Positions 1,991 through 30,179 of a DNA stretch of 64,000 nucleotides are shown one piece after another. A program made the translations under genes and the position numbers. Source of the DNA: Tabrizicola sp. (GTDB lineage Bacteria; Pseudomonadota; Alphaproteobacteria; Rhodobacterales; Rhodobacteraceae); the NCBI RefSeq assembly GCF_022842145.1, contig NZ_JALHQD010000004.1, positions 186,001 through 250,000 on the forward strand, given 5' to 3'. The first letter of the stretch is position 1, and the number at the start of each line of letters is the position of its first letter. The notes beneath the pieces were generated by a model. It searched no databases. It was not told where the DNA came from and saw only the letters and a program-made list of their open reading frames with translations.

Positions 1991-2026
1991 GTCCGGCCTG
2001 TCGCGCGGGCAGGGGGCTTGTCTTCT

Positions 2027-2047
2027 TGCAAATGCTTCTCATTTACA
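2027..2047. promoter_or_regulatory. Fur/Mur-like operator upstream of sitA
   Basis: TGCAAATG (2027-2034) and CATTTACA (2040-2047) form an inverted repeat across 5 bases with one mismatch, 31 bp before the sitA ATG. The AT-rich dyad with TGC and GCA-like ends resembles Fur-family (Fur or Mur) boxes of alphaproteobacteria. Mur is the expected regulator of sitABCD in this group. Assignment to Mur rather than Fur is inferred. Confidence 0.6.
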
Positions 2048-2078
2048 TTCTAGTGTTCTCAAAGCCGATGGAGCTCCC

Positions 2079-2975: not shown

Positions 2976-2979
2976 GGGC

Positions 2980-3834: not shown

Positions 3835-3845
3835 CCCATCCCGCC

Positions 3846-3878
3846 TTTCACATTTGCCCAAATATCCCCGCCGGAGGC
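3846..3878 (-). repeat. dispersed AAATATCC element, copy A
   Basis: TTTCACATTTGCCC followed by AAATATCCCC and GCCGGAGGC. It matches six other intergenic copies in this window (13278, 21777, 24364, 32143, 47758, 51032) in order: TTTCATCTTT-like segment, AAATATCC core, then a G/C-rich part. It lies in the 147-bp gap inside the sit operon. Confidence 0.65.
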
Positions 3879-3981
3879 AGCGCCGAGCCGGTTGCGCGCC
3901 CTTCGCGCGCAGAGGCGAGACAAAGCAGCGCGCCGCAAGGCGCTCGATTCAGGAACCGTCCCAACCCGCGCGCCGGTCGCC

Positions 3982-4812: not shown

Positions 4813-5630
4813 TCGAGGCGGCGCTTCAGCCCTTCCAGTTTCCCTTCATGCAAAACGCGTTCCTCATCGCGCTGATCGTGGCACCGCCCACAGCACTTCT
4901 GTCCTGTTTTCTGGTTCTGAAAGGCTGGGCGCTGATGGGCGATGCGGTCAGTCACGCGGTCCTGCCCGGCATCGTGCTGGCCTACATGGCGGGCCTGCCG
5001 CTTTTGCTGGGCGCCTTCATCGCCGGCCTCGGCTCGTCGCTTCTGACCGGCTGGCTGGCCGACAACAGCCGGATCAAGCGCGACACGGTGATGGGGGTGG
5101 TCTTTTCGGCCATGTTCGCGCTGGGGATCGTGCTGCACACCGCTTTTCCCAGCGACGTCCACCTGGATCACATCCTCTTCGGCAACATGCTGGGCGTGGG
5201 GCAGGGCGACCTGATCACCGCCGCCCTGATCGCCGCACCGGTGACGCTGATCCTGACCCTCAAATGGCGCGACCTGATGCTGCATGCCTTCGACCCGGCC
5301 CAGGCCCAGGTTTCAGGCCTGCCGACGGGGCTGCTTCACTACGGGCTTCTCACCATCCTCGCGCTGACTATCGTTGCCACGCTGTCCTCGGTCGGCCTGA
5401 TCCTCGCCATCGGCCTTCTGATCGCGCCCGGGGCCATCGCCTTTCTTGTCACCCGCAGCTTCGGGGCCATGCTGATCACCGCGACGCTGGTGTGCCTCTT
5501 CGCGATGAGCGCGGGCGTCTACGCCAGTTTCTACCTCGACTCGGCCCCGGCGCCGACGGTGATCCTGATCCTGACCGCGATGTTCCTTCTGGCTTTCCTG
5601 CGCCGCGTGCTTCTGACCCGCACTGCCTGA
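4809..5630 (+). CDS. sitD: Mn/Fe ABC transporter, second permease
   Basis: A 273-residue ABC-3 permease paralogous to SitC, with the same LKGWALMGDAVSHAVLPGI loop and about eight membrane segments. The ATG at 4809 overlaps the sitC stop (ATGA), so the two are translationally coupled and expected in equal amounts. The presence of two different permeases plus a PsaA-like binding protein fits SitABCD rather than a three-gene ZnuABC. The next gene (glycosyltransferase) begins 64 bp later and is functionally unrelated. Confidence 0.87.
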   Translation: MIEAALQPFQFPFMQNAFLIALIVAPPTALLSCFLVLKGWALMGDAVSHAVLPGIVLAYMAGLPLLLGAFIAGLGSSLLTGWLADNSRIKRDTVMGVVFSAMFALGIVLHTAFPSDVHLDHILFGNMLGVGQGDLITAALIAAPVTLILTLKWRDLMLHAFDPAQAQVSGLPTGLLHYGLLTILALTIVATLSSVGLILAIGLLIAPGAIAFLVTRSFGAMLITATLVCLFAMSAGVYASFYLDSAPAPTVILILTAMFLLAFLRRVLLTRTA

Positions 5631-5694
5631 TCCCCTTGCGGGACTGAGGCCCAGCCTCTACCCATAAGCCATCGCGTCAGGAAAAAAGCCCCGC

Positions 5695-7377
5695 ATGCCC
5701 GCCACCAACGCCGCCATCTGGTTTTCGTCGGACGGCTATGATCCGAAGGCCAGGGGGATCAACGGCCGCCGGGTCGCGGGCGAAAGCTTCCTGCGCGGCT
5801 TTTTCAACCACGCCGACGTCGACGAGTTCGTCTCGATCAGCCATACCCAAGGCGACCATGCCGCTTTCGCCCGGATCGCCGCCGCCCAGGGCGTGACCCG
5901 GCCCTTGCGCGCGGTCCGGCTGGACGCGCCCGGTGGCCTGCCTCCGGTCGAGGTGGTCTCCTACCCCGCGCCGATCTCGTCGGTGGAATGCTGGCGGCGC
6001 AGCCCCCACGGTGCCGCCGCCTGGGCGCTGTGCGGGATCACCCACACCACGGCGACCCGCAACGTGATGCAGACCCTCTTCGAACTGCGGTCCGCTCCGC
6101 AGATGCCCTGGGATGCGGTGATCTGCACGTCCCGGGCGGTCCAGGCCTCGGTCCGTCGGTTGATGGAACTGGCCGAGGTCCACCTGAGCCGCCGCTTCGC
6201 CGGGGCATCCCTGCCACCGCGGCCTCTTTTGCCCGTGGTGCCGCTTGGCATCAATTGCGCCGACTTCCTGCCCGACGCCGCGCTGGGGCAGGGGCTGCGC
6301 GACCGCATCGGGGCGGGGCCGCGCGACATTCTTGCCGTGACCATCGCCCGCCTGACGCCGGACGAAAAGTTCGATCCCCTGCCTTTGTTCCTGGCGATGG
6401 AAGCCGCCGCTGCCGAGGTTGCGGGGCAGGGTGGCGGCAAGCTTCACTTGGTGTTCTGCGGCCAGTTCAAGGAACCCGGCTGGGAGGCGATCTTCGCCGA
6501 GGCCGCGGCCCGGCTGATGCCCTCCTGCGGCTACCACCTTCTGGACGGGGGCAATCCGCAGGACCGCAAGGCCACCCTTTCCGGCGGCGACATCTTCGTC
6601 TTCCCCATCGACAACCTGCAGGAGACCTTCGGCCTCGCGCCGATCGAGGCGATGGCGGCCGGACTGCCGGTCATCGTGTCGGACTGGGACGGACTGAAGG
6701 ACAGCGTGACGCCCGAGGTGGGTTTCCGCATCCCGACCGAACTTCCCCGACCGGGACTGTCGACCTACATCAGCCAACGGCATCTTGGCGGTACGGACGG
6801 CTATGTCCAGTACCTGAGCCAGGTTTCCGCCCTGACACCCCTTGACCTTGGGGCGCTCCGGCGGGCGCTGGTGACGCTGGCGCTTGACCCCGGGCTGCGC
6901 GCCCGGATGGGGGCGGCGGGTCAGGCCCGGGCGCGGGCGCTTTACGATTGGGCGGCGGTGATCCCGCAGATGCAGGCGCTTTGGGCCGAACAGGCCGCGA
7001 TGCTGGCGCATGCCCGCCAGAAGGGTGGCGCCGCGCTTGCCCCGCTGCCCGCCGGGCTTGTACCGGTCGGCCCGGCGGTGGACGAGATGTTCGCGGGCTA
7101 CCCGACCGGTTTCGCGCCGGACGACCGCCGTCTTGCCGCGACGCCGGGACCGACCCTCGCGCCGGCCGAGATGTTCGGCTTGCGCAACTATGCCTCCCGC
7201 CGCCGCCTCGTCGAGGACCCCACCCGGCTGGCGTCGATCCTTGCCGCCTATGCCGCCACCGGCCCGGACGGCGCGACCGAAGCCGAGATCGCCGCCACCG
7301 CCCGTTTGCCGCAGGCCGTAGTGGCGCGTGCCGCACTCTGGCTTCTCAAATACGGCTACCTGACGGAGATCCCATGA
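5695..7377 (+). CDS. glycosyltransferase family 4-like protein
   Basis: 560 residues with a GT-B fold pattern. The C-terminal Rossmann half carries the E-x7-E motif (ETFGLAPIE, around residue 315) followed by AMAAGLPVIVSDWDG, typical of GT4 retaining glycosyltransferases that use nucleotide sugars. The N-terminal half starts with a beta strand and RGINGRRVAGESFLRGF. The last ~60 residues (TEAEIAATARLPQAVV...) look like a small winged-helix-type add-on not found in standard GT4 enzymes. The stop overlaps the following SDR start by ATGA, so both are co-translated. Acceptor unknown; an envelope polysaccharide role is plausible. Confidence 0.75.
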   Translation: MPATNAAIWFSSDGYDPKARGINGRRVAGESFLRGFFNHADVDEFVSISHTQGDHAAFARIAAAQGVTRPLRAVRLDAPGGLPPVEVVSYPAPISSVECWRRSPHGAAAWALCGITHTTATRNVMQTLFELRSAPQMPWDAVICTSRAVQASVRRLMELAEVHLSRRFAGASLPPRPLLPVVPLGINCADFLPDAALGQGLRDRIGAGPRDILAVTIARLTPDEKFDPLPLFLAMEAAAAEVAGQGGGKLHLVFCGQFKEPGWEAIFAEAAARLMPSCGYHLLDGGNPQDRKATLSGGDIFVFPIDNLQETFGLAPIEAMAAGLPVIVSDWDGLKDSVTPEVGFRIPTELPRPGLSTYISQRHLGGTDGYVQYLSQVSALTPLDLGALRRALVTLALDPGLRARMGAAGQARARALYDWAAVIPQMQALWAEQAAMLAHARQKGGAALAPLPAGLVPVGPAVDEMFAGYPTGFAPDDRRLAATPGPTLAPAEMFGLRNYASRRRLVEDPTRLASILAAYAATGPDGATEAEIAATARLPQAVVARAALWLLKYGYLTEIP

Positions 7378-8096
7378 CCAGATCCATCCTTATCACCGGC
7401 GCGGGCGCCGGCATCGGCCGTGCCACCGCGCGCCTGTTCCTGTCGGAAGGCTGGGAGGTCACGCTCCTCGGCCGTCGCCGCGCGGCGCTTGAGGAAACGG
7501 CCGCCGGACAGTCAGCGCGCATCCTGACTGCCGATGTCGGCGAGCCGTCCGAGGTTGGCGCAGCCTTCGCGCAGCTTCCCCGCCTCGACGTCCTTTTCAA
7601 CAACGCCGGCATCTCGGCCCCCGCCGCGCCGATCGACGAGATCCCGGTGGAAAAGTGGCTGGAGGTCAGCCGCACCAATATCACCGGGATGTTCCTTTGT
7701 GCCCGTGCGGCCTTTGGTCTGATGCGGCGCCAGTCCCCCCGCGGCGGGCGGATCATCAACAACGGTTCGATCTCGGCCCATGTTCCGCGGCCGGGGTCCA
7801 CCCCCTATACCATGTCAAAACACGCCGTGACCGGCCTGACCCGGACCTTGGGCCTTGACGGTCGCGCCTTCGACATCGCCTGCGCGCAGATCGATATCGG
7901 CAATGCGCTGACGGACATGGCCGCCAAGTTCACCCAAGGCGTCCCCCAGGCCAGCGGCGACATCCGCGTCGAGCCGGTGATGGACGTCGATCATGTCGCG
8001 CGGATGGTGCTGCACATGGCCAGCCTGCCGCTTGAGGTGAACACGCCCTTCGTGACAATCATGGCCCGGGACATGCCCTATATCGGGCGTGGCTAA
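7374..8096 (+). CDS. short-chain dehydrogenase/reductase
   Basis: A 240-residue classical SDR. The nucleotide-binding motif TGAGAGIG is at residues 8-15, NNAG near 80, the catalytic Ser in NGSISA near 138, and Y-x3-K (YTMSK) near 152. It probably reduces or oxidises a small alcohol or sugar with NAD(P)H in the cytoplasm; the substrate cannot be read from sequence. It overlaps the upstream glycosyltransferase (ATGA), which suggests a shared pathway. The convergent ArsR gene starts 3 bp after its stop. Confidence 0.82.
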   Translation: MTRSILITGAGAGIGRATARLFLSEGWEVTLLGRRRAALEETAAGQSARILTADVGEPSEVGAAFAQLPRLDVLFNNAGISAPAAPIDEIPVEKWLEVSRTNITGMFLCARAAFGLMRRQSPRGGRIINNGSISAHVPRPGSTPYTMSKHAVTGLTRTLGLDGRAFDIACAQIDIGNALTDMAAKFTQGVPQASGDIRVEPVMDVDHVARMVLHMASLPLEVNTPFVTIMARDMPYIGRG

Positions 8097-8099
8097 GGC

Positions 8100-8462
8100 T
8101 CAGGCCTTGCGGTCGATCATTCCCGACAACAGGCCCAACAGCTCCAGCACCCGGGGATCGCGGACCGCATAGTAGATCGCCTTGCCATCGCGCCGGGTCG
8201 AGACCAGTCCTTCCAGCCGCAGCCGCGCCAGTTGCTGGCTGACCGCCGCCTGACGCTGGCCAAGCAGGTCTTCCAACTCGGTCACCGACCTTTCGCCCGC
8301 GGCCAGATGGCACAGAATCATCAGCCGACCTTCATGGCTCAGCGCCTTCAGAAAGGCGGCGACCGGAGCGGCATGCTCTGCCATCCGCCCGGCAAGTCCG
8401 CCGGATTCGGGCGTTCCGATCTTGTAAACTGCATTATCCAAGGTGAACCGATCCAGTGACAT
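8100..8462 (-). CDS. ArsR-family transcriptional regulator (BigR/YgaV-like)
   Basis: About 120 residues with the ArsR winged helix: HEGRLMILCHLAAGE, then recognition helix QAAVSQQLARLR and wing RRDGKAIYYAV. It resembles BigR/SqrR/YgaV repressors, but where those use two Cys for a persulfide switch, only the Cys in the first helix (ILCHL) is present and the C-terminal helix (LELLGLLSGMIDRKA) has none. Start 8462 is chosen because GAGG lies 6 bases upstream; ATG at 8468 or 8486 is possible, and the 8486 form would add an N-terminal Cys. It is divergent from the PHP gene. Confidence 0.8.
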   Translation of the reverse strand: MSLDRFTLDNAVYKIGTPESGGLAGRMAEHAAPVAAFLKALSHEGRLMILCHLAAGERSVTELEDLLGQRQAAVSQQLARLRLEGLVSTRRDGKAIYYAVRDPRVLELLGLLSGMIDRKA

Positions 8463-8481
8463 AACCATCCTCACACAACCA

Positions 8482-8505
8482 AACATTGCATAAAGATATC
8501 ATGTT
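8482..8505. promoter_or_regulatory. AT-rich dyad in the arsR/PHP divergent region
   Basis: AACAT (8482-8486) and ATGTT (8501-8505) are inverted around a 14-base AT-rich centre, in an otherwise GC-rich region. ArsR-family dimers bind AT-rich imperfect palindromes near their own start, so this is a candidate operator for autoregulation and control of the divergent PHP gene. Confidence 0.4.
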
Positions 8506-8586
8506 CGCCTGCAAGTCACGACAGTCCCTTGCCATTGATACCATCTGCCGCGCAAGGTTCCGCCGAAACGACCCATAAGGACCGAC

Positions 8587-9537
8587 ATGCTTCGCCCCTC
8601 TGCCTTCACCGCGCCCGGCCACTTCTGGCGCGGGAACCTGCACACCCATTGCACCAATTCCGACGGGGTCCTCCCTGCCGAGGAAGTCTGCCGCCGCTAC
8701 AAGGCCGAGGGCTATGACTTCCTGGCGATCACCGACCATTTCATCGGCATCTACGGCTATCCGATGACCGACACGCGGCCCTACCGCGACGCGGGCTTCA
8801 CGACGCTGATCGGCGCGGAACTGCACTCCGGCGCGCAAACGAATGGCGAGCTGTGGCACATCTTGGCCGTCGGCCTGCCCGATGATTTCGCGCCCCCCGC
8901 CACGACCAGCTTCGTCGCCGAACCGGGGCAGGAAACCGGCCCCGAGATTGCTGCCCGCGCCGTCGCTGCCGGGGCCTTTGTCGCCATCGCCCATCCGCAA
9001 TGGTCGGGGCTGACGCTGGCCGATGCCCGCACGATCGAGGCCGCCCACGCGGTCGAGATCTACAACCACGGCTGCGCCACCGGCTGCGACCGTCCCGACG
9101 GTGCGGGGATCGCCGACCTTTTGCTGACCGAAGGCCGCCACCTGACCCTGATCGCCACCGACGACGCGCATTTCCACGAGCCGGACCATTTCGGCGGCTG
9201 GGTCATGGTGAAATCGACCGAGAATACGCCCGAGGCGCTGCTGGCCGCCCTGAAACGCGGCGATTTCTATTCCAGTCAGGGTCCGCAGATCCACGACGTC
9301 CGGGTCGAGGGTGACACGGCCTATGTCGAATGCTCGGCTGCCGCATCGGTCGTGGCTCTGGGTTGGGGCACCGGCGCGCGGAGTGTGCACGGCCATTCCA
9401 TGACCCGCGCCGAAGTGCCGCTTGACCGCCTCCTTGGGTCCCCCTGGGTCCGCATCTCGGTCATCGATGCGGCCGGAAAGCGCGCCTGGTCAAACCCGAT
9501 CTGGCGCGAAGCCGGCAAGAACCCCCGCATCCTGTAA
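8587..9537 (+). CDS. PHP-domain metal-dependent phosphoesterase
   Basis: A 316-residue PHP-family protein. Motif I HTHCTNSDG (near residue 20) and motif II ITDH (near 48) supply metal-binding His and Asp; further His/Asp clusters are AELHSG, IAHPQW and ATDDAHFHEPDH. These fit the three-metal site of TrpH/YciV-type phosphoesterases that act on nucleoside bisphosphates or short oligonucleotides, although sugar-phosphate substrates are also known. It is divergent from the ArsR gene across 124 bp, which suggests control by that repressor. Cytosolic. Substrate unassigned. Confidence 0.78.
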   Translation: MLRPSAFTAPGHFWRGNLHTHCTNSDGVLPAEEVCRRYKAEGYDFLAITDHFIGIYGYPMTDTRPYRDAGFTTLIGAELHSGAQTNGELWHILAVGLPDDFAPPATTSFVAEPGQETGPEIAARAVAAGAFVAIAHPQWSGLTLADARTIEAAHAVEIYNHGCATGCDRPDGAGIADLLLTEGRHLTLIATDDAHFHEPDHFGGWVMVKSTENTPEALLAALKRGDFYSSQGPQIHDVRVEGDTAYVECSAAASVVALGWGTGARSVHGHSMTRAEVPLDRLLGSPWVRISVIDAAGKRAWSNPIWREAGKNPRIL

Positions 9538-9555
9538 AGCGGGTACCCCCGGGCG

Positions 9556-9582
9556 TTCCCCCTCCCCCGCGGGGGAGAGGGC
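9556..9582. terminator. GC-rich hairpin downstream of the PHP gene
   Basis: CCCTCCCCC and GGGGGAGAGGG pair around a very short centre with a two-base bulge, 20 bp after the PHP stop. There is no T-run, so it may be a Rho-dependent pause site or a copy of a common GC-rich palindromic repeat rather than a true intrinsic terminator. Confidence 0.4.
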
Positions 9583-9630
9583 GCCGGGGTGAGGGGGGCT
9601 GCCACCCGCCCACCGTCCGGGGTCGCCTCG

Positions 9631-9798
9631 TCACGCGATGGTCTGGCTCAGCCGTGCCTTCCGGGCAAAGAACACCGGGACCGCGGTCCCCGACCGGTCA
9701 GAGCCGCCGCCCTTCAGCATGCCGATCCGCCGCAACATCGGGTCTTCGCGCCGCATCGCCCGAAGGCACCAGTTGAGAATTGCTTTCGATCCGGTCAT
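9631..9798 (-). CDS. small hypothetical protein
   Basis: A 55-residue basic protein beginning TGSKAILNW, with Arg/Lys clusters and no membrane segment. The start at 9798 is favoured because GGAGGG lies 8 bases upstream; an in-frame ATG at 9837 would add 13 residues. I do not recognise a family. It stands alone between the PHP gene and the YdeI-like gene. It may be a real small protein or chance; the ribosome-binding site is the main support. Confidence 0.35.
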   Translation of the reverse strand: MTGSKAILNWCLRAMRREDPMLRRIGMLKGGGSDRSGTAVPVFFARKARLSQTIA

Positions 9799-9837
9799 GG
9801 CGCTCTCCCTCCGCGGTTTCGTTAACTTATTACTCAT

Positions 9838-10046
9838 CCAGAAGTTGAGTTCGACGTGGCCGATCCAAGGAGATTTCCAGCGAAGATCATGGCGATATCG
9901 TGAACTGCGGCAGAGACGGGGACGATCCTACCCAATCGCTCTGGTTGTTTCGTCTTCTGGCAAAGGCTGGCCGGAAAACCTGCTCGCCACAGCGGGACTT
10001 GCGCCGTTCGGCCCCATGGCCGACACTGCGGTCCGGGAGAAAGCCG
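9838..10046. other. intergenic stretch without recognised gene
   Basis: About 210 bases between the small ORF and the YdeI-like gene. Short frames cross it on both strands, but none has a ribosome site and a recognisable product. A GGGAGA ribosome site for the downstream gene sits at its right end. Confidence 0.5.
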
Positions 10047-10682
10047 ATGCCCGACCGCGCGATGATCACAGACCCGGACATCTACTTTGCCAAAGGGTGC
10101 GGACGTTGCGACCGCTATGCCACGGCCGACTGTTCGGCCCGCCATTGGCTGGCCGGCCTTGTCAGCCTGCGCCGCATCTGCCGCGACGCCGGCCTGAGCG
10201 AGGTCGCGAAATGGGGCCACCCGGTCTACCTGCACGCGGGCCGCAACATCGCAATTCTGGGCGCCTTCCGGGGCGATTTCCGCCTCACCTTCATGAACGC
10301 GGCGCTTCTGAAGGACCCCGAGGCAATCCTGGAACGACAGGGGCCCAACACGAAGCACCCGGACTGCATCCGCTTCACCGACAATGATGCCCCCACCGCC
10401 GTGGAGCCCACGATCCGTACCTATCTGGCCGAGGCGATGGCCTACGCCGAACAGGGTCTTCTTCCGGCGAAGGAGCCGACGGTCGTCGACCTGCCGCCCG
10501 AACTCCTCGACGCACTCGATGCCGACCCCGAACTTGCCGAGGCCTTCGCGGGCCTGACCCAAGGGCGGCAGAAAAGCTTCGTTCTCTTTCTGAACGATGC
10601 CAAGACCACCCCGACGAAGCTTGCCCGGATCGAGAAATCCCGCCCGAAGATCCTGGCCGGGAAGGGCGCCACCGAGCGCTAG
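10047..10682 (+). CDS. YdeI/OmpD-associated family protein (DUF1801-like plus C-terminal OmdA domain)
   Basis: A 211-residue cytosolic protein. The N-terminal two thirds has the DUF1801/YdeI pattern (WGHPVYLHAGRNIAILGAFRGDFRLTF), and the last ~65 residues carry the bacteriocin-protection/OmdA region (LPPELLDALDADPELAEAFAGL... SFVLFLNDAKTTPTKLARIEK). The family is widespread; function is undefined and frequently guessed to be stress or iron related. The N-terminus also holds three Cys (CGRCDRYATADC). I chose ATG 10047 for the GGGAGA site 6-12 bases upstream; ATG 10062 is an alternative. Confidence 0.75.
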   Translation: MPDRAMITDPDIYFAKGCGRCDRYATADCSARHWLAGLVSLRRICRDAGLSEVAKWGHPVYLHAGRNIAILGAFRGDFRLTFMNAALLKDPEAILERQGPNTKHPDCIRFTDNDAPTAVEPTIRTYLAEAMAYAEQGLLPAKEPTVVDLPPELLDALDADPELAEAFAGLTQGRQKSFVLFLNDAKTTPTKLARIEKSRPKILAGKGATER

Positions 10683-20909: not shown

Positions 20910-21755
20910 TCAGCCGAAATGCCGGGCAACCAGTAGCGTCAGCTTGCGGTGCAGCGGCAGCGTGCGGTGGCGGATGTGCAGCGCGGCAAAGACGGGCTGG
21001 CGAAGATCGGGTGCATCTGCCACCGCCATGAAGCGTCCCCCGGCGATAAGCTCATCAGCGGTCTTCTCCAGCACGTAGCCCGAACCCCCCATCGCATTCA
21101 AAAGCGAGACGACGGACCCCGACTGCCCGACGGACACCGGAGAGGTCGCGAGGTCAGGGGTAAGCTGGCGGTGCATCTCCTCGAAAGCGGGGGAGAAGTG
21201 GGCGAAGACAAAGCGGTCGGGCCGAACCTCGGCAAGGTGCGGGGTATCGGTGGAGATCATGCGGTAGGTCACGTCTCCGACGCTGTCGAAATGCAGGTCG
21301 GGATGCGGCTTGGGGCTGAACATCACCGCGAAGTCCAGGATGCCGGTCAGAAGGTCGGCGCACATCTGGTTGGAATAGTCGGGCTCGATGTAGAAGGCGG
21401 TCTGGGGAAAGGCCGCACGGAACTCGGCCACCCAGTCGCCGAGGTAGACGGCGGCAAGGTCGTTCTGGATGCCAAGGCGGAGGAGTTGCGCGGCCCCTTG
21501 GGGGATCTGGATGCGGCGCTTGGCCTCGTTCCATTCGTGGCGAAGGGCGCGGGCGTGGGGCTCGAAGCGTTTGCCTTCGGGCGTAAGATCGGTCCCGGCG
21601 CGCGAGCGGTCGAAGAGGCGCTGGCCGACCGCTTGCTCCAGAGCAGACACGCGTGCGGAGACGGTGGATTGGGTGATCCGCAGCCGGTCCGCGGTGCGGT
21701 GAAAGCTGCGGGTCTCGGTAAGGTCGAGGAAGGTGTCGAGGAGATCGATCTGCAT
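20910..21755 (-). CDS. LysR-family transcriptional regulator
   Basis: 281 residues. The N-terminal helix-turn-helix (FLDLTETRSFHRTADRLRITQSTVSARVSALEQAVGQRLFDR) is typical LysR, followed by a two-lobed effector domain (LLRLGIQNDLAAVYLGDWV..., SVGQSGSVVSLLNAMGGSGYVLEK). It is divergent from the GcvT-domain flavoprotein operon across 169 bp and so is the likely activator. A T-N11-A dyad lies at 21835-21851 between them. The inducer is unknown but is probably a methylated amine. Confidence 0.85.
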   Translation of the reverse strand: MQIDLLDTFLDLTETRSFHRTADRLRITQSTVSARVSALEQAVGQRLFDRSRAGTDLTPEGKRFEPHARALRHEWNEAKRRIQIPQGAAQLLRLGIQNDLAAVYLGDWVAEFRAAFPQTAFYIEPDYSNQMCADLLTGILDFAVMFSPKPHPDLHFDSVGDVTYRMISTDTPHLAEVRPDRFVFAHFSPAFEEMHRQLTPDLATSPVSVGQSGSVVSLLNAMGGSGYVLEKTADELIAGGRFMAVADAPDLRQPVFAALHIRHRTLPLHRKLTLLVARHFG

Positions 21756-21776
21756 CGTGGCACCTCATGGCTGGCC

Positions 21777-21828
21777 CTTGGGGTTTTCCACCCCCGGACC
21801 ACCGGAGGATATTGGCGGAAAGAGAATG
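21777..21828 (+). repeat. dispersed AAATATCC element, copy C (degenerate)
   Basis: A weak G/C hairpin (GGGG, TTTTCCA, CCCC), then GGACCACCGGAGGATATTGG and CGGAAAGAGAATG. The order of parts matches copies B and D, but the A/T core is damaged (GGATATTGG). It is in the divergent LysR/flavoprotein promoter region. Confidence 0.5.
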
Positions 21829-21834
21829 GGCTGT

Positions 21835-21851
21835 GATCGGGTTTATCGATC
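21835..21851. promoter_or_regulatory. LysR-type T-N11-A box
   Basis: GATCG (21835-21839) and CGATC (21847-21851) are a perfect 5-bp dyad across 7 bases, giving the canonical T-N11-A spacing (T21837, A21849). It lies between the divergent LysR gene and the flavoprotein operon, about 75 bp before the operon start. Confidence 0.5.
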
Positions 21852-21924
21852 AATAGCGCACGTCCGGCCGAATTGAAAGCCTGCGCCCGTCGGCTGATAG
21901 TGAGTGCAATTCTGGGGGGCGGTC

Positions 21925-24351
21925 ATGGCTGAATTTGCGCAGGCGCGGGTGGTTATCATCGGCGGTGGGGCCGTCGGGGCCTCGGCCTTGTATCACCTGG
22001 CGAAGGCGGGGTGGACAGACTGTCTTCTCCTGGAAAAGAACGAGCTGACGGCGGGGTCGACCTGGCATGCGGCGGGGAACGTGCCGACATTTTCGGCCAG
22101 TTGGTCGATCATGAACATGCAGCGCTATTCGGCCTCGCTTTACCGCGGGCTGGGCGAGGCGGTCGGCTATCCGATGAACTACCATGTGACGGGATCGGTG
22201 CGGCTGGGACACTCGAAGGAGCGGCTGCAGGAGTTCAAGCGCGTCGTCGGCATGGGCCGGTATCAGGGCATGGACCTGGATATCCTGACGCCAGACGAGA
22301 TCACCTCGCGCTATCCGTTCCTCGAGACGCATGACCTGGCCGGGGCCCTGTACGACCCCTATGATGGCGACATCGACCCCGCGCAGTTGACACAGGCGCT
22401 GGCCACGGGTGCACGGAAGCTGGGTGCGCGGGTGGAGCGGTTCTGTCCGGTCACGGCGGCGGAGTGGACCGGCAAAGAATGGGTGCTGACCACGCCGAAG
22501 GGAACGGTGCGCTGCGAATACGTGGTGAACGCGGGCGGCTACTATGCCGCACAGGTTGGTGCCATGTTCGGACGCCGGGTCCCGATGATGGTGATGAGCC
22601 ATCAGTACATGCTGTTCGACACCATCCCCGAGCTGGAAGCCTGGACGAAGGAGACCGGCCACAAGCTGCCGCTGTTGCGGGATGTCGACAGCTCCTACTA
22701 CCTGCGGCAAGAGAAGATGGGCTTCAACCTCGGCCCCTATGAGAACCCCTGCCGCGCGCATTGGGCGACGCCGGACGATCCGATGCCCGAGGATTTCAGC
22801 TTCCAGCTTTTCCCCGACGATCTGGAGCGGCTGGAGTTCCATATCAACGACGCGATGGCGCGGGTGCCGCTTCTGGCGCAGGCGAACCTGACCAAGGTGA
22901 TCAACGGCCCGATCCCCTATACCCCTGACGGAAACCCCCTCATCGGCCCGATGCCGGGGGTCCCGAATGCCTTCGAGGCCTGCGTCTTCACCTTCGGCAT
23001 CTGCCAGGCGGGTGGTGCGGGCAAGGTGCTGGCGGAATGGGTGACAGAAGGTGGCACCGAATGGGACATGTGGTCCTGTGACCCGCGGCGCTTCACCGGG
23101 TGGGAGGATCACGATTACCTCGTCGCCAAGGGCAAGGAAGTCTACGGCCACGAATACGGCATGCATTTCCCGATGGCGCGCTGGCCTGCGGGTGGGGATC
23201 GTCGGCTTTCCCCGGTCCATGACAAGCTGAAGGCGCTGGGCGCACAGTTCTCGCCCTACAACGGCTGGGAGCGGGCGGAGTGGTTTGCGGCACCCGGCGA
23301 CGATACCGGCTGGGAGGCGACGCAGACCTGGGGCCGTGCCGGTCCCTGGCAGGTCCGGATCAAGGCGGAATGCGAAGCGGTGCGCGATGGGATCGGGGTC
23401 CTGGACCTGCCGGGCTTCACCCGGCTGCGGCTGGTTGGGCCGGGCGCACGGGCGCATCTGGCCTCGCTGACCGCGTCGAAGCTGCCACAGCCGGGGCGGA
23501 TGGGGCTGATCTACTTCGCGGACGACCGGGGCCGGATCGTGACCGAGATGACCTGCATCCCGGCCAGCGACGACGACGTGGGCGTCATCACCGCCGCCGT
23601 CGCGCAAAGTCATGACGCCGACCTTCTGCGCAAGGGTTTGCCCGAAGGGGTGGTGCTGGAAGACTGGTCGGACAGGATCCACTGCTTCATCGTCACCGGC
23701 CCCAAGTCGCGCGACCTGCTGGCAGGGATCGCCGAAGCTGACCTGACGCTGCCCTGGCTCTCGGTCCAGTTCGCAGCCAAGGTCGCGGGCCGTGACGTGG
23801 CTCTGGTTCGGGTTTCCTTTGCGGGGGAACTTGGCTGGGAAATCCACTGTGACCGCGAGGATGCTCCGGCGATCTATGACGCCCTGCTCGCGCAGGGCGC
23901 GACGCCCTTCGGGATGAAGGCCCTGAACGCCCTGCGCATCGAGAAGGGCTACCGGGCCTGGAAAGGCGATCTTTCCACGGACTATTCGCTGCTGGAGGGC
24001 GGGTTGGAGCGGTTCATCGACTGGGGCCATGACTTCCCGGGCAAGGCGACGCTGGCGGCGGAGAAGCAGCGCGGAGTGAAGAAGCGCTTCGTTTCGCTGA
24101 AGGTGGACGCGCAAGAGTGTGACGCGCCCTATATGTCGACGCTTTGGCACGACGGGCAGGTGGTAGGCGAGACGACCTCGGCTGCCTGGGGTTACCGGGT
24201 CGGGCATTCGATGGCGCTGGGCATGTTGCGCGCGGAGCTTGCGGTGGCGGGAACCGAGGTCGAGGTGGAAATCTTCGGCGACCGGGTGAAGGCCGTGGTG
24301 CTGCCCGACGGTCCGGCCTGGGACGCGAAGAACGAGCGCATACGCGCGTGA
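21925..24351 (+). CDS. GcvT-domain FAD-dependent oxidoreductase (dimethylglycine/sarcosine dehydrogenase-like), paralogue 1
   Basis: 808 residues. Residues ~5-35 hold the FAD-binding VVIIGGGAVGASALYHL; the DAO-fold half carries GSTWHAAGN, where dimethylglycine dehydrogenases attach FAD covalently to the His. After about residue 420 comes a GcvT/THF-binding half (WQVRIKAECEAVRDGIGVLDLPGFTRLRL, VSFAGELGWEIH, MKALNALRIEKGYRAW). Family members demethylate N-methyl groups and pass formaldehyde to tetrahydrofolate. ATG 21925 is chosen because FAD-binding begins immediately; a GTG at 21904 is also in frame. It is the first gene of the operon. Substrate unproven. Confidence 0.82.
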   Translation: MAEFAQARVVIIGGGAVGASALYHLAKAGWTDCLLLEKNELTAGSTWHAAGNVPTFSASWSIMNMQRYSASLYRGLGEAVGYPMNYHVTGSVRLGHSKERLQEFKRVVGMGRYQGMDLDILTPDEITSRYPFLETHDLAGALYDPYDGDIDPAQLTQALATGARKLGARVERFCPVTAAEWTGKEWVLTTPKGTVRCEYVVNAGGYYAAQVGAMFGRRVPMMVMSHQYMLFDTIPELEAWTKETGHKLPLLRDVDSSYYLRQEKMGFNLGPYENPCRAHWATPDDPMPEDFSFQLFPDDLERLEFHINDAMARVPLLAQANLTKVINGPIPYTPDGNPLIGPMPGVPNAFEACVFTFGICQAGGAGKVLAEWVTEGGTEWDMWSCDPRRFTGWEDHDYLVAKGKEVYGHEYGMHFPMARWPAGGDRRLSPVHDKLKALGAQFSPYNGWERAEWFAAPGDDTGWEATQTWGRAGPWQVRIKAECEAVRDGIGVLDLPGFTRLRLVGPGARAHLASLTASKLPQPGRMGLIYFADDRGRIVTEMTCIPASDDDVGVITAAVAQSHDADLLRKGLPEGVVLEDWSDRIHCFIVTGPKSRDLLAGIAEADLTLPWLSVQFAAKVAGRDVALVRVSFAGELGWEIHCDREDAPAIYDALLAQGATPFGMKALNALRIEKGYRAWKGDLSTDYSLLEGGLERFIDWGHDFPGKATLAAEKQRGVKKRFVSLKVDAQECDAPYMSTLWHDGQVVGETTSAAWGYRVGHSMALGMLRAELAVAGTEVEVEIFGDRVKAVVLPDGPAWDAKNERIRA

Positions 24352-24363
24352 CATCCGGCGGAC

Positions 24364-24414
24364 CGGGGGTTTCACACCCCCGGACCCCCGTGGGATATTT
24401 TTGCAAAGATGAAA
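24364..24414 (+). repeat. dispersed AAATATCC element, copy D
   Basis: A 7-bp hairpin (CGGGGGT, TTCAC, ACCCCCG), then GGACCCCCGTGGGATATTTTT and GCAAAGATGAAA. It fills the gap between the two GcvT-domain paralogues, in the opposite orientation relative to transcription from copies A, B, E and G. Confidence 0.75.
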
Positions 24415-24424
24415 GACCTGAGTG

Positions 24425-26863
24425 ATGGCTGAGATTCCGGTGAAAGCGCGGGCGGTGGTGATCGGGGGCGGGGTCTCGGGCTGTTCAGTGGCCTATCATC
24501 TGGCCAAGGCGGGCTGGACCGATGTGGTGCTGCTGGAGCGCCGGAAGCTGACCTCCGGAACCACCTGGCACGCGGCCGGGCTGATCGGGCAGTTGCGCGG
24601 GTCGGCGAACATGACGCGGTTGGCGAAGTATTCCGCCGATCTGTACCGCGGGCTCGAGGCGGAGACCGGGGTTGCCACGGGGATGAAGCAGGTCGGGTCG
24701 ATTTCCGTCGCTTTGACGGCGGAGCGGCATGAGGAATTGCTGCGGCAGGCCACCGTGGCGCGGATTTTCGATGTCGAGGTGCACGAGATTTCGCCGTCCG
24801 AGGTGAAGGCGCGCTATCAGCATCTTAACATCGACGGAGTCGTCGGTGCTGTGGCCTTGCCGCTGGACGGCCAGTGCGACCCGGCCAATATCGCGATGGC
24901 GTTGGCCAAGGGCGCGCGGATGCGGGGGGCTAAGATCTTCGAGGGCGCGCTGGTGACGAAGGTCACGACTGCCGGGGGCCGCGTGACGGGCGTCGACTAT
25001 GAGACCTCCGAGGGACCGGGGCATATCGAGGCCGACGTGATCGTCAATTGCGGTGGCATGTGGGGCCGTGACCTTGCGGCGCAGAACGGGGTAACCCTGC
25101 CCCTGCACGCGTGTGAACACTTCTACCTCGTCACCGAACCCGTTGACGGCCTTAAGGATTTGCCGGTCCTGCGGGTGCCGGATGAATGTGCCTACTACAA
25201 GCAGGACGCCGGCAAGATGATGCTGGGCGCCTTCGAGCCCAAGGCCAAGCCCTGGGGCATGGATGGCATCCGCAAGGACTTCGAGTTCGACACGCTGCCC
25301 GAGGATTGGGATCACTTCATGCCCATCCTGGAACACGCGATGAACCGGATGCCGCTGTTTCAGACCGCGGGCATTCACACCTTCTTCAACGGACCCGAGT
25401 CCTTCACCCCCGACGACCGCTACTACCTTGGTGAGGCGCCCGAGGTGCGGGGCTATTGGATCGCGGCCGGATACAATTCCATCGGAATCGTGTCGTCCGG
25501 CGGCGCGGGTCAGGCGCTGGCGCACTGGATCACCGAAGGCGAGCCGCCCTTTGACCTGTGGGAAGTCGACATCCGCCGCGCCCAGCCGTTCCAGAAGAAC
25601 CGGCGTTATCTGCAAGAGCGGGTGACCGAGACGCTGGGGCTTCTGTACGCCGACCACTTCCCCTACCGTCAGGTGGTCACCTCGCGCGGGGTGCGGCGGT
25701 CACCGATCCACGAGCATCTGAAAGCGCGCGGGGCGGTGTTCGGCGAGGTCGCGGGTTGGGAACGCGCGAACTGGTTTGCCAATGCGGGGCAGGAGCGGGA
25801 GTACCGCTACTCCTGGAAGCGGCAGAACTGGTTCGACAACCAGCGCGCCGAGCATATGGCGGTGCGCGAAGCGGCGGGTCTGTTCGACATGACCTCGTTC
25901 GGCAAGATCCGGATCGAAGGTCGTGACGCCTGCGCCTTCCTGAACCGGATTTCGTCGGCCCAGATGGATGTCCCGGTGGGGCGGATCGTCTACACCATGT
26001 TCCTCAATGCCAGCGGGGGGATCGAGGCAGACCTTACCGTGACGCGCCTCAGTGAAACCGCCTATCTGGCTGTTGTCCCTGGCGCGACGCTGCAGCGCAA
26101 CCTTGCTTGGATGCGCGCCCATGTCGGTGACGACTTCGCGGTCATCACCGATGTTACTGCGGCGGAGTCGGTGTTGTGCCTGATGGGGCCGCTGGCGCGA
26201 GAGGTGCTGGCGAAGGTTTCGCCGAATGACTTCAGCAACACTGCGCATCCCTTTGGGCAGGCAAAAGAAATCGAGATCGGCATGGGCTTGGCCCGAGCGC
26301 ACCGCGTCACCTATGTGGGTGAACTGGGATGGGAGCTGTATATACCGACCGACCAGACCGCCCATGTGTTTGAAAGCCTGATGGAGGCGGTCCCGGACCT
26401 GAAACTCTGCGGCCTGCACACGCTGGACAGCTGCCGGATCGAGAAGGCCTATCGCCACTGGGGCCACGACATCACCGATGAAGATCACGTGCTGGAAGCG
26501 GGCCTCGGCTTCACCGTCAGCCGCAAGAAACCGGCTTTTGCGGGCCGCGACGCGGTGCTGCGGCGCGAAGAGGAAGGGCTGGGCCGCAAGATGCTCCAGT
26601 TCCGCCTCAAGGACCCGGAACCACTGCTGTTCCACAACGAAGCCATTGTCCGCGATGGGAAAATCGTCGGTCCGGTCACTTCGGGCAACTATGGTCACTT
26701 CCTGGGTGGTGCGGTGGGTCTCGGCTATGTCCCGGCCAAAGGTCAGACGGACGGCGACCTTTTGTCCTCGACCTACGAGATTGAGGTCGCTGGCCAGCGC
26801 CACGCCGCCATCGCCTCGCTTGCTCCGATGTACGACCCCGTCAGCGAACGGGTGCGCGCATGA
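24425..26863 (+). CDS. GcvT-domain FAD-dependent oxidoreductase (dimethylglycine/sarcosine dehydrogenase-like), paralogue 2
   Basis: 812 residues, the same architecture as the preceding gene. FAD motif VVIGGGVSGCSVAYHLAKAGWTD is at the N-terminus, and the covalent-FAD candidate His is in GTTWHAAGL. The C-terminal GcvT half starts near residue 450 (YSWKRQNWFDNQRAEHMAVREAAGLFDMTSFGKIRIEG) and ends with TLDSCRIEKAYRHWGHDI. The two paralogues share the N-terminal signature but differ clearly elsewhere, so they may act on successive methyl groups or different amines. GTG 24422 and ATG 24425 both begin the frame. It overlaps the next gene by ATGA. Confidence 0.84.
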   Translation: MAEIPVKARAVVIGGGVSGCSVAYHLAKAGWTDVVLLERRKLTSGTTWHAAGLIGQLRGSANMTRLAKYSADLYRGLEAETGVATGMKQVGSISVALTAERHEELLRQATVARIFDVEVHEISPSEVKARYQHLNIDGVVGAVALPLDGQCDPANIAMALAKGARMRGAKIFEGALVTKVTTAGGRVTGVDYETSEGPGHIEADVIVNCGGMWGRDLAAQNGVTLPLHACEHFYLVTEPVDGLKDLPVLRVPDECAYYKQDAGKMMLGAFEPKAKPWGMDGIRKDFEFDTLPEDWDHFMPILEHAMNRMPLFQTAGIHTFFNGPESFTPDDRYYLGEAPEVRGYWIAAGYNSIGIVSSGGAGQALAHWITEGEPPFDLWEVDIRRAQPFQKNRRYLQERVTETLGLLYADHFPYRQVVTSRGVRRSPIHEHLKARGAVFGEVAGWERANWFANAGQEREYRYSWKRQNWFDNQRAEHMAVREAAGLFDMTSFGKIRIEGRDACAFLNRISSAQMDVPVGRIVYTMFLNASGGIEADLTVTRLSETAYLAVVPGATLQRNLAWMRAHVGDDFAVITDVTAAESVLCLMGPLAREVLAKVSPNDFSNTAHPFGQAKEIEIGMGLARAHRVTYVGELGWELYIPTDQTAHVFESLMEAVPDLKLCGLHTLDSCRIEKAYRHWGHDITDEDHVLEAGLGFTVSRKKPAFAGRDAVLRREEEGLGRKMLQFRLKDPEPLLFHNEAIVRDGKIVGPVTSGNYGHFLGGAVGLGYVPAKGQTDGDLLSSTYEIEVAGQRHAAIASLAPMYDPVSERVRA

Positions 26864-27690
26864 CGCTGGCCAAGCGCCACCAGGCGTTCCACGACCTGCA
26901 CCAGTCCGGCTGCTTCGTCATCCCGAACCCCTGGGACCGGGGCAGCGCAAGGATGATGGCGGCGCTCGGCGCCAAGGCGCTCGCCACCAGTTCTGCGGCC
27001 CACGCTTTCACCCTGGGCCGCCCCGACCTTGGCGGTGTGACCCGGGACGAGGCCCTTGCCCACGCCGAGGACCTGATTGCCGCGACCGATCTTCCGGTAT
27101 CGGGCGACTTCGAGAACGGGTTCGGCGACACGGCTGAAGACGTGGCCGAGACGGTCCGACTTGCTGCCGAGATCGGCCTTTCCGGCATCAGCGTCGAAGA
27201 CACCACAATGGTCCCCGGCAATGCGCCCTACGGCTTCGATCTTGCGGTGGAACGCATCCGTGCGGGTGCTGCGGCGGCCCGTGCGCTGAACCGCCCCTTC
27301 ATCTTCTGCGCCCGCGCCGATGGTGTCATGCATGGCACCTATGATCTGACGGAAGCCATCCGCCGCCTGCAAGCTTTCGAGACGGCGGGCGCGGACCTGC
27401 TTTACTGTCCCGTGCCACCCGGAAAAGCCGAACTGGCCCGGATCCTTGGATCGGTCTCCAAGCCGGTGAACGCCCTGGCAGCAGGGCCGCTGAAGACCAT
27501 GACCGTTGCGGAACTGGCGACAATGGGGGTGCGCCGCATCTCCACCGGCAGCCAGATCGCGCGCCTGACCCACGCCGCCATTCGCGACGCCACCACGGCC
27601 ATGCTTGCCGACGGCTCCTTCGCCCCGCTGGCCCACACCGCCAGCGGCGACGAGATCGATGCACTCCTCCTCAAGGGATCAGCCCAATGA
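26860..27690 (+). CDS. isocitrate lyase/PEP mutase superfamily protein
   Basis: 276 residues, the single-domain ICL/PEP-mutase fold (PF13714). N-terminal HDLHQSGCFVIPNPWDRGSARMM, then GDFENGFGDTAEDVAETV (metal/substrate loop) and SVEDTT. The K-K-C-G-H catalytic motif of true isocitrate lyase is absent, which places it with carboxyphosphonoenolpyruvate or 2,3-dimethylmalate lyase-like C-C bond enzymes. It overlaps both neighbours (ATGA, 26860 and 27687), so it is fully inside the methylated-amine operon. What C-C bond it acts on is unknown. Confidence 0.8.
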   Translation: MTLAKRHQAFHDLHQSGCFVIPNPWDRGSARMMAALGAKALATSSAAHAFTLGRPDLGGVTRDEALAHAEDLIAATDLPVSGDFENGFGDTAEDVAETVRLAAEIGLSGISVEDTTMVPGNAPYGFDLAVERIRAGAAAARALNRPFIFCARADGVMHGTYDLTEAIRRLQAFETAGADLLYCPVPPGKAELARILGSVSKPVNALAAGPLKTMTVAELATMGVRRISTGSQIARLTHAAIRDATTAMLADGSFAPLAHTASGDEIDALLLKGSAQ

Positions 27691-29249
27691 CCGACATGCC
27701 CGACATCGGCGAGACCTGCGAACCCGCCCGCAACCGCCGCTCCGGCGGCCGTACCGCCCGCGTCGCCCTGCGCTCCGCCCCGCTTGCCGACGACGTGAAG
27801 CCTGTCCGGCCGGGCCTGCCGGGCGGCCAGTACAAACCCCTGACCGAGGTCGGAGTCCAGCAGATCCACGCCGCGGCGCTGGACGCATTGGAGCAGATCG
27901 GCCTTTCGCAAGCCCCGCCCTCGGGCGTGAAGCTTCTGACCGAGGCGGGCGCGATCCTGGGCGATGACGGACGCATCCGCTTTCCCCGCGCGCTGGTCGA
28001 GGACATGCTGGCCATCGCCGCGCGCAACATAACGCTGCATGCCCGCGACCCGAAGTACGACCTGCACCTGAGCGGCACCAACGTGCATTACGGCACGGCA
28101 GGGGCGGCGGTGCACATCGTCGATCCGGTGACCCATGAATACCGGGAATCCACCGCGCAGGACCTGTATGATGCGGCTCGCCTGGTCGACAACCTGGACA
28201 ACATCCACTTCTACCAGCGCACGATGGTCTGCCGCGACGTCGTCGACAACAAGGAGATGGACCTCAACACCCTGTACGGCAGCCTTGCCGGGACGGTGAA
28301 GCACGTCGGCACCTCGATTTCCGACCCGTCGCACGTCGCCGATTGCTTCGACATGCTGCACATGGTTGCGGGCGGCGAGGAGAAGTGGCTGGAACGGCCC
28401 TTCGTCAGCAATTCCAATTGCTTCGTCGTGCCGCCCATGAAGTTTGCGGAAGAAAGCTGCATCACGATGGAAGATTGCATCCGCCGTGGAATGCCGATGC
28501 TGCTTTTGTCCGCAGGGCAGGCTGGGGCGACCTCACCGGCGCCGATCGCGCTGACCATCGTGCAGGCTGTCGCCGAATGCCTGGCGGGCGTCGTCTACGT
28601 CAACGCGATCAAACCCGGTGCGCCCGCGATCTTCGGAACCTGGCCTTTTGTTTCCGATCTGAGAACGGGTGCGATGTCCGGAGGTAGCGCGGAACAGGCC
28701 CTTCTGACCGCCGGTTGCGCCCAGATGCACCGCTTCTACGACCTGCCGGGCGGGGCGGCCTCGGGCATCTCCGACTCCAAACTTCCCGACATGCAGGCCG
28801 GTTGGGAGCAGGGGATCACCAACGCCCTTGCCGGTCTTGCGGGCCTGAACATGTGCTACGAGGCGGTCGGGATGCACGCCTCGCTTCTGGGGTTCTGCCT
28901 GGAATCCCTTGTGCTGGGGGATGACCTGCTGGGCCAGACGATGCGGCTGGTCCGCGGGATTGATGTCACGCCCGATTCCACCAGCATCCAGGCGATGAAG
29001 GAGGTCTGCCTTGGCGGGCCGGGTCATTACCTTGGCTCGGACCAGACGCTGAAACTGATGCAGACCGAATACATCTACCCCAACGTCGGCAACCGCATGT
29101 CGCCCAAGGAATGGAACGAGGCCGGGAAGCCTTTGCTTCTGGATACCGCCATCGCCCGGAAGAACATGATCCTTGCGAAGGCCGGGTGTCGGGTTGACGC
29201 GGAAATCGACGCAGCGATCCGCAAGCGGTACAACATCTACTTCAACTGA
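27687..29249 (+). CDS. MttB-family (trimethylamine/betaine:corrinoid) methyltransferase, non-pyrrolysine
   Basis: 520 residues, TIM-barrel MttB superfamily. Recognisable parts are GLPGGQYKPLTEVGVQQIHAAALDALEQIG, LHARDPKYDLHLSGTNVHYGTAGAAVHIVD, GTSISDPSHVADCFDMLHM, and LSAGQAGATSPAPIALT. There is no internal TAG, so unlike MttB of methanogens it does not carry pyrrolysine; relatives without it (MtgB, MtpB, MtcB) demethylate glycine betaine, proline betaine or carnitine onto a corrinoid protein. No corrinoid protein or reactivase is nearby. It sits between GcvT flavoproteins and a dehydrogenase, an unusual partnership for this family. Confidence 0.82.
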   Translation: MTDMPDIGETCEPARNRRSGGRTARVALRSAPLADDVKPVRPGLPGGQYKPLTEVGVQQIHAAALDALEQIGLSQAPPSGVKLLTEAGAILGDDGRIRFPRALVEDMLAIAARNITLHARDPKYDLHLSGTNVHYGTAGAAVHIVDPVTHEYRESTAQDLYDAARLVDNLDNIHFYQRTMVCRDVVDNKEMDLNTLYGSLAGTVKHVGTSISDPSHVADCFDMLHMVAGGEEKWLERPFVSNSNCFVVPPMKFAEESCITMEDCIRRGMPMLLLSAGQAGATSPAPIALTIVQAVAECLAGVVYVNAIKPGAPAIFGTWPFVSDLRTGAMSGGSAEQALLTAGCAQMHRFYDLPGGAASGISDSKLPDMQAGWEQGITNALAGLAGLNMCYEAVGMHASLLGFCLESLVLGDDLLGQTMRLVRGIDVTPDSTSIQAMKEVCLGGPGHYLGSDQTLKLMQTEYIYPNVGNRMSPKEWNEAGKPLLLDTAIARKNMILAKAGCRVDAEIDAAIRKRYNIYFN

Positions 29250-29279
29250 TCCCGCCAAAGTACGGGAAAGAGGGACAAA

Positions 29280-30179
29280 ATGCACTACGGGTACATCGGC
29301 CTTGGCAACCTTGGTGCGGCCTGTGCGGGCTGTCTGGTGAAGGACGGCTTCAAGGTCACGGTCTTCGATCTGAACCGCAACCTCGCCGAACCTCTGGTTG
29401 CCCAAGGTGCGGTCTTGGCCACCAGCGCCGAAGACCTGGCGGCGTCGGTGGATCATGTCATCACCTGCCTGCCATCCCCTGCGGTGTCAGAGCGCGTGTT
29501 GCGGAACATCCTGCCGCACATGAAGCCGGCTGCGTCCTGGGTGGAAATGTCGACCCTTGGCCGCGACGAAGTGCTGAAACTGGCCGCCGTGGCAGAAGCA
29601 GGAGGCGTCCAGATGATGGAACTGCCCGTCACGGGTGGCGTGCATCTGGCCTACCAGGGCAAGATCACCATGCTGGCGGGCGGGGACCGCAACCTTTACG
29701 ACCTGCACTACAAGGCGATGCAGGCGATGGGCGACCGGATCTTCCACATGGGTCCCTTGGGGTCGTCCTCGATCATCAAGGTCATCACCAACATGCTGGC
29801 CTTCATCCACCTGAAGGCGACCTCCGAGGCGCTGATGCTTGCCAAGCGCGGCGGGCTGGACCTGGGGCAGGCATGGCACGCGATTGCAGCCAGTTCTGGA
29901 AACAGTTTCGTGCATGAAACCGAAGGCGCGCTTATCCTGAACGGGTCCTATGACATCGCCTTCAACATCGACCTCGCGCTGAAGGACCTGGGGTTCGCAT
30001 TGGGGTTCGGCAAGGAGTTCGGGGTGCCGCTGGACCTCGCATCGATGACCAACCAGACCTACATCGCGGCCAAGGCGGCCTATGGTGGCGAGGCGCAGTC
30101 CCCGATGATTGCGAAGCTGCTGGAGGATCTGCTTGGCACCGACCTGCGGGCCGACGGCTTCCCGGCGCGGCTGGAATGA
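29280..30179 (+). CDS. NAD(P)-dependent beta-hydroxyacid dehydrogenase family protein
   Basis: 299 residues, 3-hydroxyisobutyrate dehydrogenase/GarR-type. N-terminal Rossmann YGYIGLGNLGAACAGCLVKDGF, substrate loop ELPVTGGVHLAYQGKITMLAGG, and catalytic Lys in SSIIKVITNMLAF (the family has G-x3-K). It would oxidise a beta-hydroxyacid or reduce a semialdehyde. It starts 30 bp after the MttB-like gene and is the last member of the plus-strand operon. A likely job is handling a carbon skeleton released from the amine substrate (inferred). Confidence 0.82.
   Translation: MHYGYIGLGNLGAACAGCLVKDGFKVTVFDLNRNLAEPLVAQGAVLATSAEDLAASVDHVITCLPSPAVSERVLRNILPHMKPAASWVEMSTLGRDEVLKLAAVAEAGGVQMMELPVTGGVHLAYQGKITMLAGGDRNLYDLHYKAMQAMGDRIFHMGPLGSSSIIKVITNMLAFIHLKATSEALMLAKRGGLDLGQAWHAIAASSGNSFVHETEGALILNGSYDIAFNIDLALKDLGFALGFGKEFGVPLDLASMTNQTYIAAKAAYGGEAQSPMIAKLLEDLLGTDLRADGFPARLE

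Follow-up and report, generated by a model that had tools for sequence, protein, structure and literature searches.

Gene content and conservation of the operon

The 64-kb stretch of DNA analysed here (64,000 nucleotides, hereafter the window) lies on contig C4 (NZ_JALHQD010000004.1, positions 186,001 to 250,000) of the genome of Tabrizicola sp. (GCF_022842145.1; 4.33 Mb, 18 contigs, 99.99% complete) and contains six genes (Table 1), which a first-pass annotation had described as a methylated-amine operon with a non-pyrrolysine member of the MttB family, here named MTTB, and no corrinoid partner. All six were found as open reading frames with Pfam scores well over the cut-offs (for the FAD1 and FAD2 pair DAO 210 and 230, GCV_T 181 and 257), they recur in relatives, and the description as a methylated-amine operon was supported; the operon is conserved, and the demethylation that it probably serves follows a mechanism of an established type. 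The genes had also been regarded as one translationally coupled unit, which holds for FAD2, PEPM and MTTB with 4-base overlaps at both junctions, but coupling is limited to these three because FAD1 and FAD2 are separated by 73 bases and MTTB and HBDH by 30 bases. A cystathionine gamma-lyase gene (502 bits, cut-off 440) follows on the same strand 81 bases past HBDH and is found at this place in many, not all, loci of MTTB relatives.

Table 1. Genes of the operon, with positions in the window.
Gene	Position	Strand	Product	Domains and remarks
LysR	20910-21755	-	LysR-type regulator	Pfam HTH_1 and LysR_substrate; divergent, 169 bases from FAD1 start
FAD1	21925-24351	+	Dimethylglycine dehydrogenase-like flavin adenine dinucleotide (FAD)/GcvT protein, putative N-demethylase, 808 aa	DAO, FAO_M, GCV_T, GCV_T_C
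FAD2	24425-26863	+	Second dimethylglycine dehydrogenase-like FAD/GcvT protein, 812 aa	DAO, FAO_M, GCV_T, GCV_T_C
PEPM	26860-27690	+	Phosphoenolpyruvate (PEP) mutase superfamily protein, 276 aa	PEP_mutase, 232 bits
MTTB	27687-29249	+	Putative quaternary amine:corrinoid methyltransferase, non-pyrrolysine, 520 aa	PF06253, 363 bits
HBDH	29280-30179	+	Beta-hydroxyacid dehydrogenase family protein, 299 aa	NAD_binding_2 (119 bits) and NAD_binding_11

The neighbourhood comparison was based on the 80 best loci of a search with MTTB, a sample biased to close relatives, and genes were counted in the 53 loci offering at least 9 kb upstream and at least 5 kb downstream of MTTB, the remaining 27 being excluded. 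In these 53 the operon core proved to be conserved, with HBDH kept in 52, a divergent LysR gene in 51, FAD1 in 50 and FAD2 in 49, and since these four recur so regularly their grouping exceeds chance. PEPM is an accessory gene, present in nine loci. In 41 loci MTTB is followed by an aldehyde dehydrogenase gene of the same orientation, and one more has this gene on the other strand; an alcohol-dehydrogenase-like MDR gene occurs in 14. The arrangement of the window, with PEPM and without an aldehyde dehydrogenase, occurs once. The first-pass annotation took PEPM and HBDH as hints of the carbon skeleton of the substrate, a hint that is weak for PEPM because the gene is optional, and better for HBDH. 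PEPM is a superfamily member only, scoring too low for any of the named NCBIfam enzyme families that it matched (TIGR02317, methylisocitrate lyase, 72.5 against 354.4; TIGR02320, PEP mutase, 41.2 against 319.55), and HBDH likewise stays below the thresholds of all the named NCBIfam families that it hit.

Sequence comparison of FAD1 and FAD2, which are about 31% identical to each other, identified dimethylglycine dehydrogenase (5L46, 4P9S) as the closest known system, FAD1 aligning end to end (E 9e-159) and FAD2 having it as best solved match over nearly the whole length (E 4.6e-132). Both proteins combine an FAD oxidoreductase, an FAO_M and GcvT domains with the motif TWHAAG, whose histidine marks covalently bound FAD, and the motif GELGWE of the folate domain. 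Each enzyme is inferred to move one methyl group to tetrahydrofolate (THF), and therefore one MttB protein together with two such enzymes would fit three N-methyl groups, suggesting a trimethylammonium substrate. Judged by coordinates, the three further FAO_M proteins that the genome encodes lie at a distance from the four MttB paralogues, and the pairing seen in the window is therefore unique in this genome.

When moving away from the closest relatives, the surroundings of MTTB change. In Sinorhizobium pSymB and in Shinella the genes LysR-FAD1-FAD2-MTTB are found, in Shinella with PEPM too, and no HBDH within the stretch taken. Many relatives at 64-71% identity are without an FAD/GcvT gene nearby, among the loci of this kind being L064, L067, L179, L182, L186, L189 and L195 (66-70% identity), and such relatives are repeatedly preceded by a class I/II aminotransferase gene (15 loci, one representative scanned). 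Near the MTTB relatives of L063 (4335-8600, minus strand) and L189 (13122-17520, plus strand) there are ornithine-cyclodeaminase-like, D-serine-dehydratase-like, PALP and class V aminotransferase genes, a set that resembles a beta-hydroxyaspartate cycle. The distant relatives of Ruegeria pomeroyi and Ruegeria sp. THAF33 are located beside a class III aminotransferase and a thiamine pyrophosphate (TPP) enzyme, that of Leisingera beside mandelate-racemase-family, GMC and Rieske-type genes, and in two Ruegeria (L202 and L203, about 1400-10550) a relative of ~40% identity lies beside one FAD-dependent oxidoreductase; in these two loci carnitinyl-CoA dehydratase, CoA ligase and acyl-CoA dehydrogenase genes adjoin as well. 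Taken together the neighbourhoods suggest that a single MttB/FAD core is combined with varying genes for the carbon skeleton. A transporter common to many loci was not found among the cluster representatives scanned, and naming the substrate from flanking genes was dropped as the scanned genes outside the operon differ from locus to locus. Homarine was considered as a substrate as well and dropped, the literature search giving no support.

Family and substrate pocket of MTTB

MTTB belongs to the MttB superfamily, its match to PF06253 reaching 363 bits against a cut-off of 25 and covering profile positions 1-489 of 500, and its predicted fold follows matches to the solved structures 2QNE and 9YCE (MtgB), both with E about 7e-53, and 7XCL. 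The proposal of a non-pyrrolysine protein was confirmed: the counterpart of the pyrrolysine position is Ile361 with the codon ATC and no TAG, and the score against TIGR02369 (pyrrolysine trimethylamine methyltransferase, pyrrolysine at 334) is 331 bits where 525 are demanded. At the same position the 142 relatives of more than 60% identity (140 distinct sequences) have Ile in 132, Ala in six and Met in four cases. An Rfam match to PYLIS_3 (28767-28866 of the window, plus strand, 45 bits against 38) starts at codon 361 but was rejected as a true pyrrolysine insertion element, since this codon is not TAG and the match probably reflects coding homology. In the relative of locus L028 (~80% identity) an in-frame TAG was discarded as a pyrrolysine codon as well, being situated at position 493 near the end of the gene and off the pyrrolysine site, and it may be an assembly error or a sign of decay.

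In the genome five proteins match PF06253, MTTB and four paralogues. In a tree of 41 rows the four paralogues group with MtgB (support 100/99) while MTTB is found within a group of 27 rows, composed of relatives of at least 64% identity (100/100) and separate from Roseobacter plasmid relatives at 39-47% identity; MttB itself has a very long branch and its placement is unsure. Docking of MtgB predicted Y94, N199, R309 and H345 as betaine-binding residues (PMC6855144), and in MTTB these positions are occupied by G139, F246, G356 and E392 (GFGE). This pattern is present in 141 of the 142 relatives, the remaining one having GFAE, whereas in the four paralogues three or all four residues are retained (YNRH, SNRH, YNRH and GNRH); four relatives at 42-47% identity have GHSE, GHSQ, GPGE and GPSE. 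The residues assisting pyrrolysine in MttB, Gly110 and Tyr364 (PMC9842639), have their counterparts kept in MTTB and in 142 of 142 relatives. By alignment the MTTB pocket is thus neither of the MtgB type nor a pyrrolysine site.

Because the predicted pocket is lost in MTTB and its relatives and largely kept in the four paralogues, glycine betaine is an unlikely substrate of MTTB, and the earlier suggestion of a different substrate probably holds. An operon for glycine betaine, in which MTTB would have the role of MtgB and FAD1 and FAD2 would be dimethylglycine and sarcosine dehydrogenases, would agree with the nearest solved structure of both FAD/GcvT proteins and with the three methyl groups of betaine, matched by one MttB protein and two such enzymes. 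It is nevertheless improbable in view of the change of all four predicted residues throughout the relatives and of the four other MttB proteins that retain at least three of them and group with MtgB. Neither HBDH nor an aldehyde dehydrogenase is known to have a place in the betaine pathway.

Corrinoid system of the genome and its co-occurrence with MTTB

That no corrinoid partner is encoded is correct for the operon, and when the 80 MTTB loci were scanned by tblastn (E ≤1e-20) for homologues of six corrinoid-system genes none was found in any of them, but the genome itself does contain a stand-alone corrinoid protein. Five matches to the B12-binding domain PF02310 are present, on contigs C2, C3 and C5 and none on C4, and one of them is an MtgC-like protein of 267 aa on C2 in which PF02607 is paired with PF02310 and whose D-x-H-x-x-G motif would supply the cobalt ligand. 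Its gene is adjoined by DUF1638, with a homocysteine S-methyltransferase close by (NF005718, 609 bits against 338). Near this corrinoid-protein locus a permuted alphaproteobacterial transfer-messenger RNA gene was observed (L046, 14820-15176, minus strand). On contig C8 a RACo/RamA-like activase was identified and, about 170 kb away, a PF00809 pterin-binding protein that exceeds the cut-off of NF005719, methyl-THF:corrinoid protein methyltransferase (404 bits against 259). The protein encoded next to the latter matches the solved methylenetetrahydrofolate reductase (MTHFR) 7XG9 (E 4.5e-49) but nothing in Pfam or NCBIfam, so that MTHFR-like is a safer name for it than MetF2. The search for MttC/RamA-like genes that had been called for thus revealed the complete MtgC-linked set: corrinoid protein, activase, pterin methyltransferase and DUF1638.

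As matched by family and neighbourhood, this gene set is that of the shared MtgC/D/E system of R. pomeroyi DSS-3, where aerobic betaine demethylation by MtgB/C/D/E is connected to a split methionine synthase and the counterparts are SPO2160, SPO2162, SPO1884, SPO2041, SPO1863 and SPO1862 (PMC12478193). All of them are found in Tabrizicola, where the corrinoid protein, DUF1638, the RamA/RACo protein, the pterin methyltransferase with its MTHFR-like neighbour and the homocysteine methyltransferase likewise are encoded apart from the MttB gene. In R. pomeroyi, loss of mtgC or mtgD causes methionine auxotrophy, and the mutants fail to use glycine betaine for growth also when methionine is supplied; up to seven PF06253 genes per genome were taken to suggest other methylated substrates (PMC12478193). 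MTTB differs from MtgB in belonging to another clade, in being without the predicted betaine pocket and in its operon with two FAD/GcvT genes and HBDH. A second parallel, drawn from published descriptions, is the anaerobic acetogen Eubacterium limosum, where three enzymes of the MttB family, MtpB, MtcB and MtyB, act on different quaternary amines and have a single corrinoid protein in common, the gene for which lies in a separate cluster (PMC8604678). With these two precedents the lack of a partner gene in the operon, regarded as unusual in the first-pass annotation, does not appear so.

Co-occurrence was surveyed in 295 genomes of the host family (MTTB at E ≤1e-100, which admits more distant relatives too) and in 337 genomes of Alphaproteobacteria (E ≤1e-160, 52-100% identity). 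In the family, MTTB is present in 175 genomes and the activase in 281, and the test is weak since MtgC is present in 273. MtgC was found in 167 of 175 genomes with MTTB and 106 of 120 without, the activase in 173 of 175 and 108 of 120, and both were missing from none of the former and 11 of the latter (Fisher 3.8e-5). In the class, MtgC is present in 29 of 31 genomes with MTTB but in 40 of 306 without (Fisher 1.3e-20), the activase in 30 and 37 and both in 29 and 33, respectively. Because the genes of the system are in the genome and MTTB is almost confined to genomes having them, the reading we favour is that MTTB has its corrinoid partner in trans, which explains the puzzle with fair confidence.

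Proposed pathway and its alternatives

We consider it likely that the operon degrades a trimethylammonium compound, probably not glycine betaine, with MTTB using the MtgC-like corrinoid protein in trans. MTTB would take the first methyl group off the quaternary amine and load it onto the cob(I)alamin of this protein, which would be common to methionine synthesis and probably also to the other four MttB proteins. Oxidised cobalt would be restored to cob(I) by the RACo/RamA-like activase, perhaps together with DUF1638, the MtgD-like pterin methyltransferase would hand the methyl group to THF and the MTHFR-like neighbour would oxidise the methyl-THF. FAD1 and FAD2 would then oxidatively take off the two remaining N-methyl groups as methylene-THF, and the carbon skeleton would be handled by HBDH and, in most of the relatives examined, by the aldehyde dehydrogenase.

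Several points weigh against this proposal. Besides the weakness of the family-level test, the co-occurrence statistics ignore kinship and the other MttB proteins that need MtgC, and MtgC is absent from 8 of 175 MTTB genomes in the family and 2 of 31 in the class. Among the eight, G136, G160 and G224 (96-97% complete, 120-460 contigs) have MTTB and the activase and no PF02607 protein, the other five being 76-86% complete assemblies; in the two, G468 and G357, the latter 68% complete, PF02607 is confined to long open frames (1251 and 753 aa, respectively). G054, the genome without activase, has a PF02607 protein. The betaine pocket is a docking prediction and not a solved one, and the corrinoid-bonding residues Thr111 and Gly372 of MttB are Ala140 and Leu400 in MTTB, yet MtgB differs here too. 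No aldehyde dehydrogenase gene is present anywhere in the window although most relatives have one, and the argument from two enzymes and two methyl groups is a mere count.

The first-pass annotation named two other acceptors for the methyl group, a corrinoid protein elsewhere, which is present and co-occurs with MTTB, and THF through the GcvT neighbours, which nothing found requires. A corrinoid-free MTTB, passing the methyl group straight to homocysteine or to THF, in the latter case perhaps on a GcvT domain of one of the two FAD proteins, could draw on the absence of corrinoid-system genes from the 80 loci, on the conserved GcvT neighbours, on a homocysteine S-methyltransferase family that clusters at five loci, with Pfam confirming it for L160 and L174, and on the three assemblies without a PF02607 protein. 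These three still have the activase, however, many relatives lack an FAD/GcvT neighbour, the association with corrinoid protein and activase is strong, and for the characterised enzymes of the family the described methyl acceptor is cob(I)alamin or else a corrinoid protein (PMC8604678), all of which makes this alternative distinctly improbable. Least probable of all is a corrinoid-binding protein other than the MtgC-like one, for although five B12-binding-domain matches exist in the genome and G468 and G357 have PF02607 in longer frames, the pair PF02607 and PF02310 was seen only in the MtgC-like protein, one further match being a radical SAM protein and the rest lying within longer frames.

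As to the nature of the substrate of MTTB, it may be a quaternary amine without a carboxylate near the nitrogen, because the predicted Arg/His clamp is replaced by Gly/Glu and the counterparts of Gly110 and Tyr364 are invariant. A comparison is offered by the R. pomeroyi megaplasmid operon SPO_RS21400 to SPO_RS21380 (L071, 11989-21309), which has LysR, two FAD/GcvT genes and a member of the MttB family that shares 46% identity with MTTB but differs from the operon of the window in having the class III aminotransferase and the TPP enzyme, no HBDH and the pocket GHSQ. This TPP enzyme is nearest to sulfoacetaldehyde acetyltransferase, below the cut-off (401 bits against 620), and the operon may be a speculative lead towards taurine betaine; under the guessed old tags SPOA0325-0330 no literature was found for these genes. 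It is possible, if somewhat short of probable, that MTTB represents an undescribed aerobic MttB subfamily for such an amine, catalysing the first step of a three-methyl module for a widespread compound, with sister modules on Roseobacter plasmids swapping skeleton genes for other betaines. In the open-licence literature, outside of which most subscription papers fall, no published description of the MTTB clade or its operon was found.

With MTTB homologues in 175 of 295 genomes of the family and 31 of 337 of the class, the substrate is probably a common one. The presence of several PF06253 genes has been proposed to extend cobalamin-dependent demethylation to diverse methylated compounds (PMC12478193), and the operon, with a pocket and a regulator of its own and with genes hinting at the carbon skeleton, offers a concrete and testable case.

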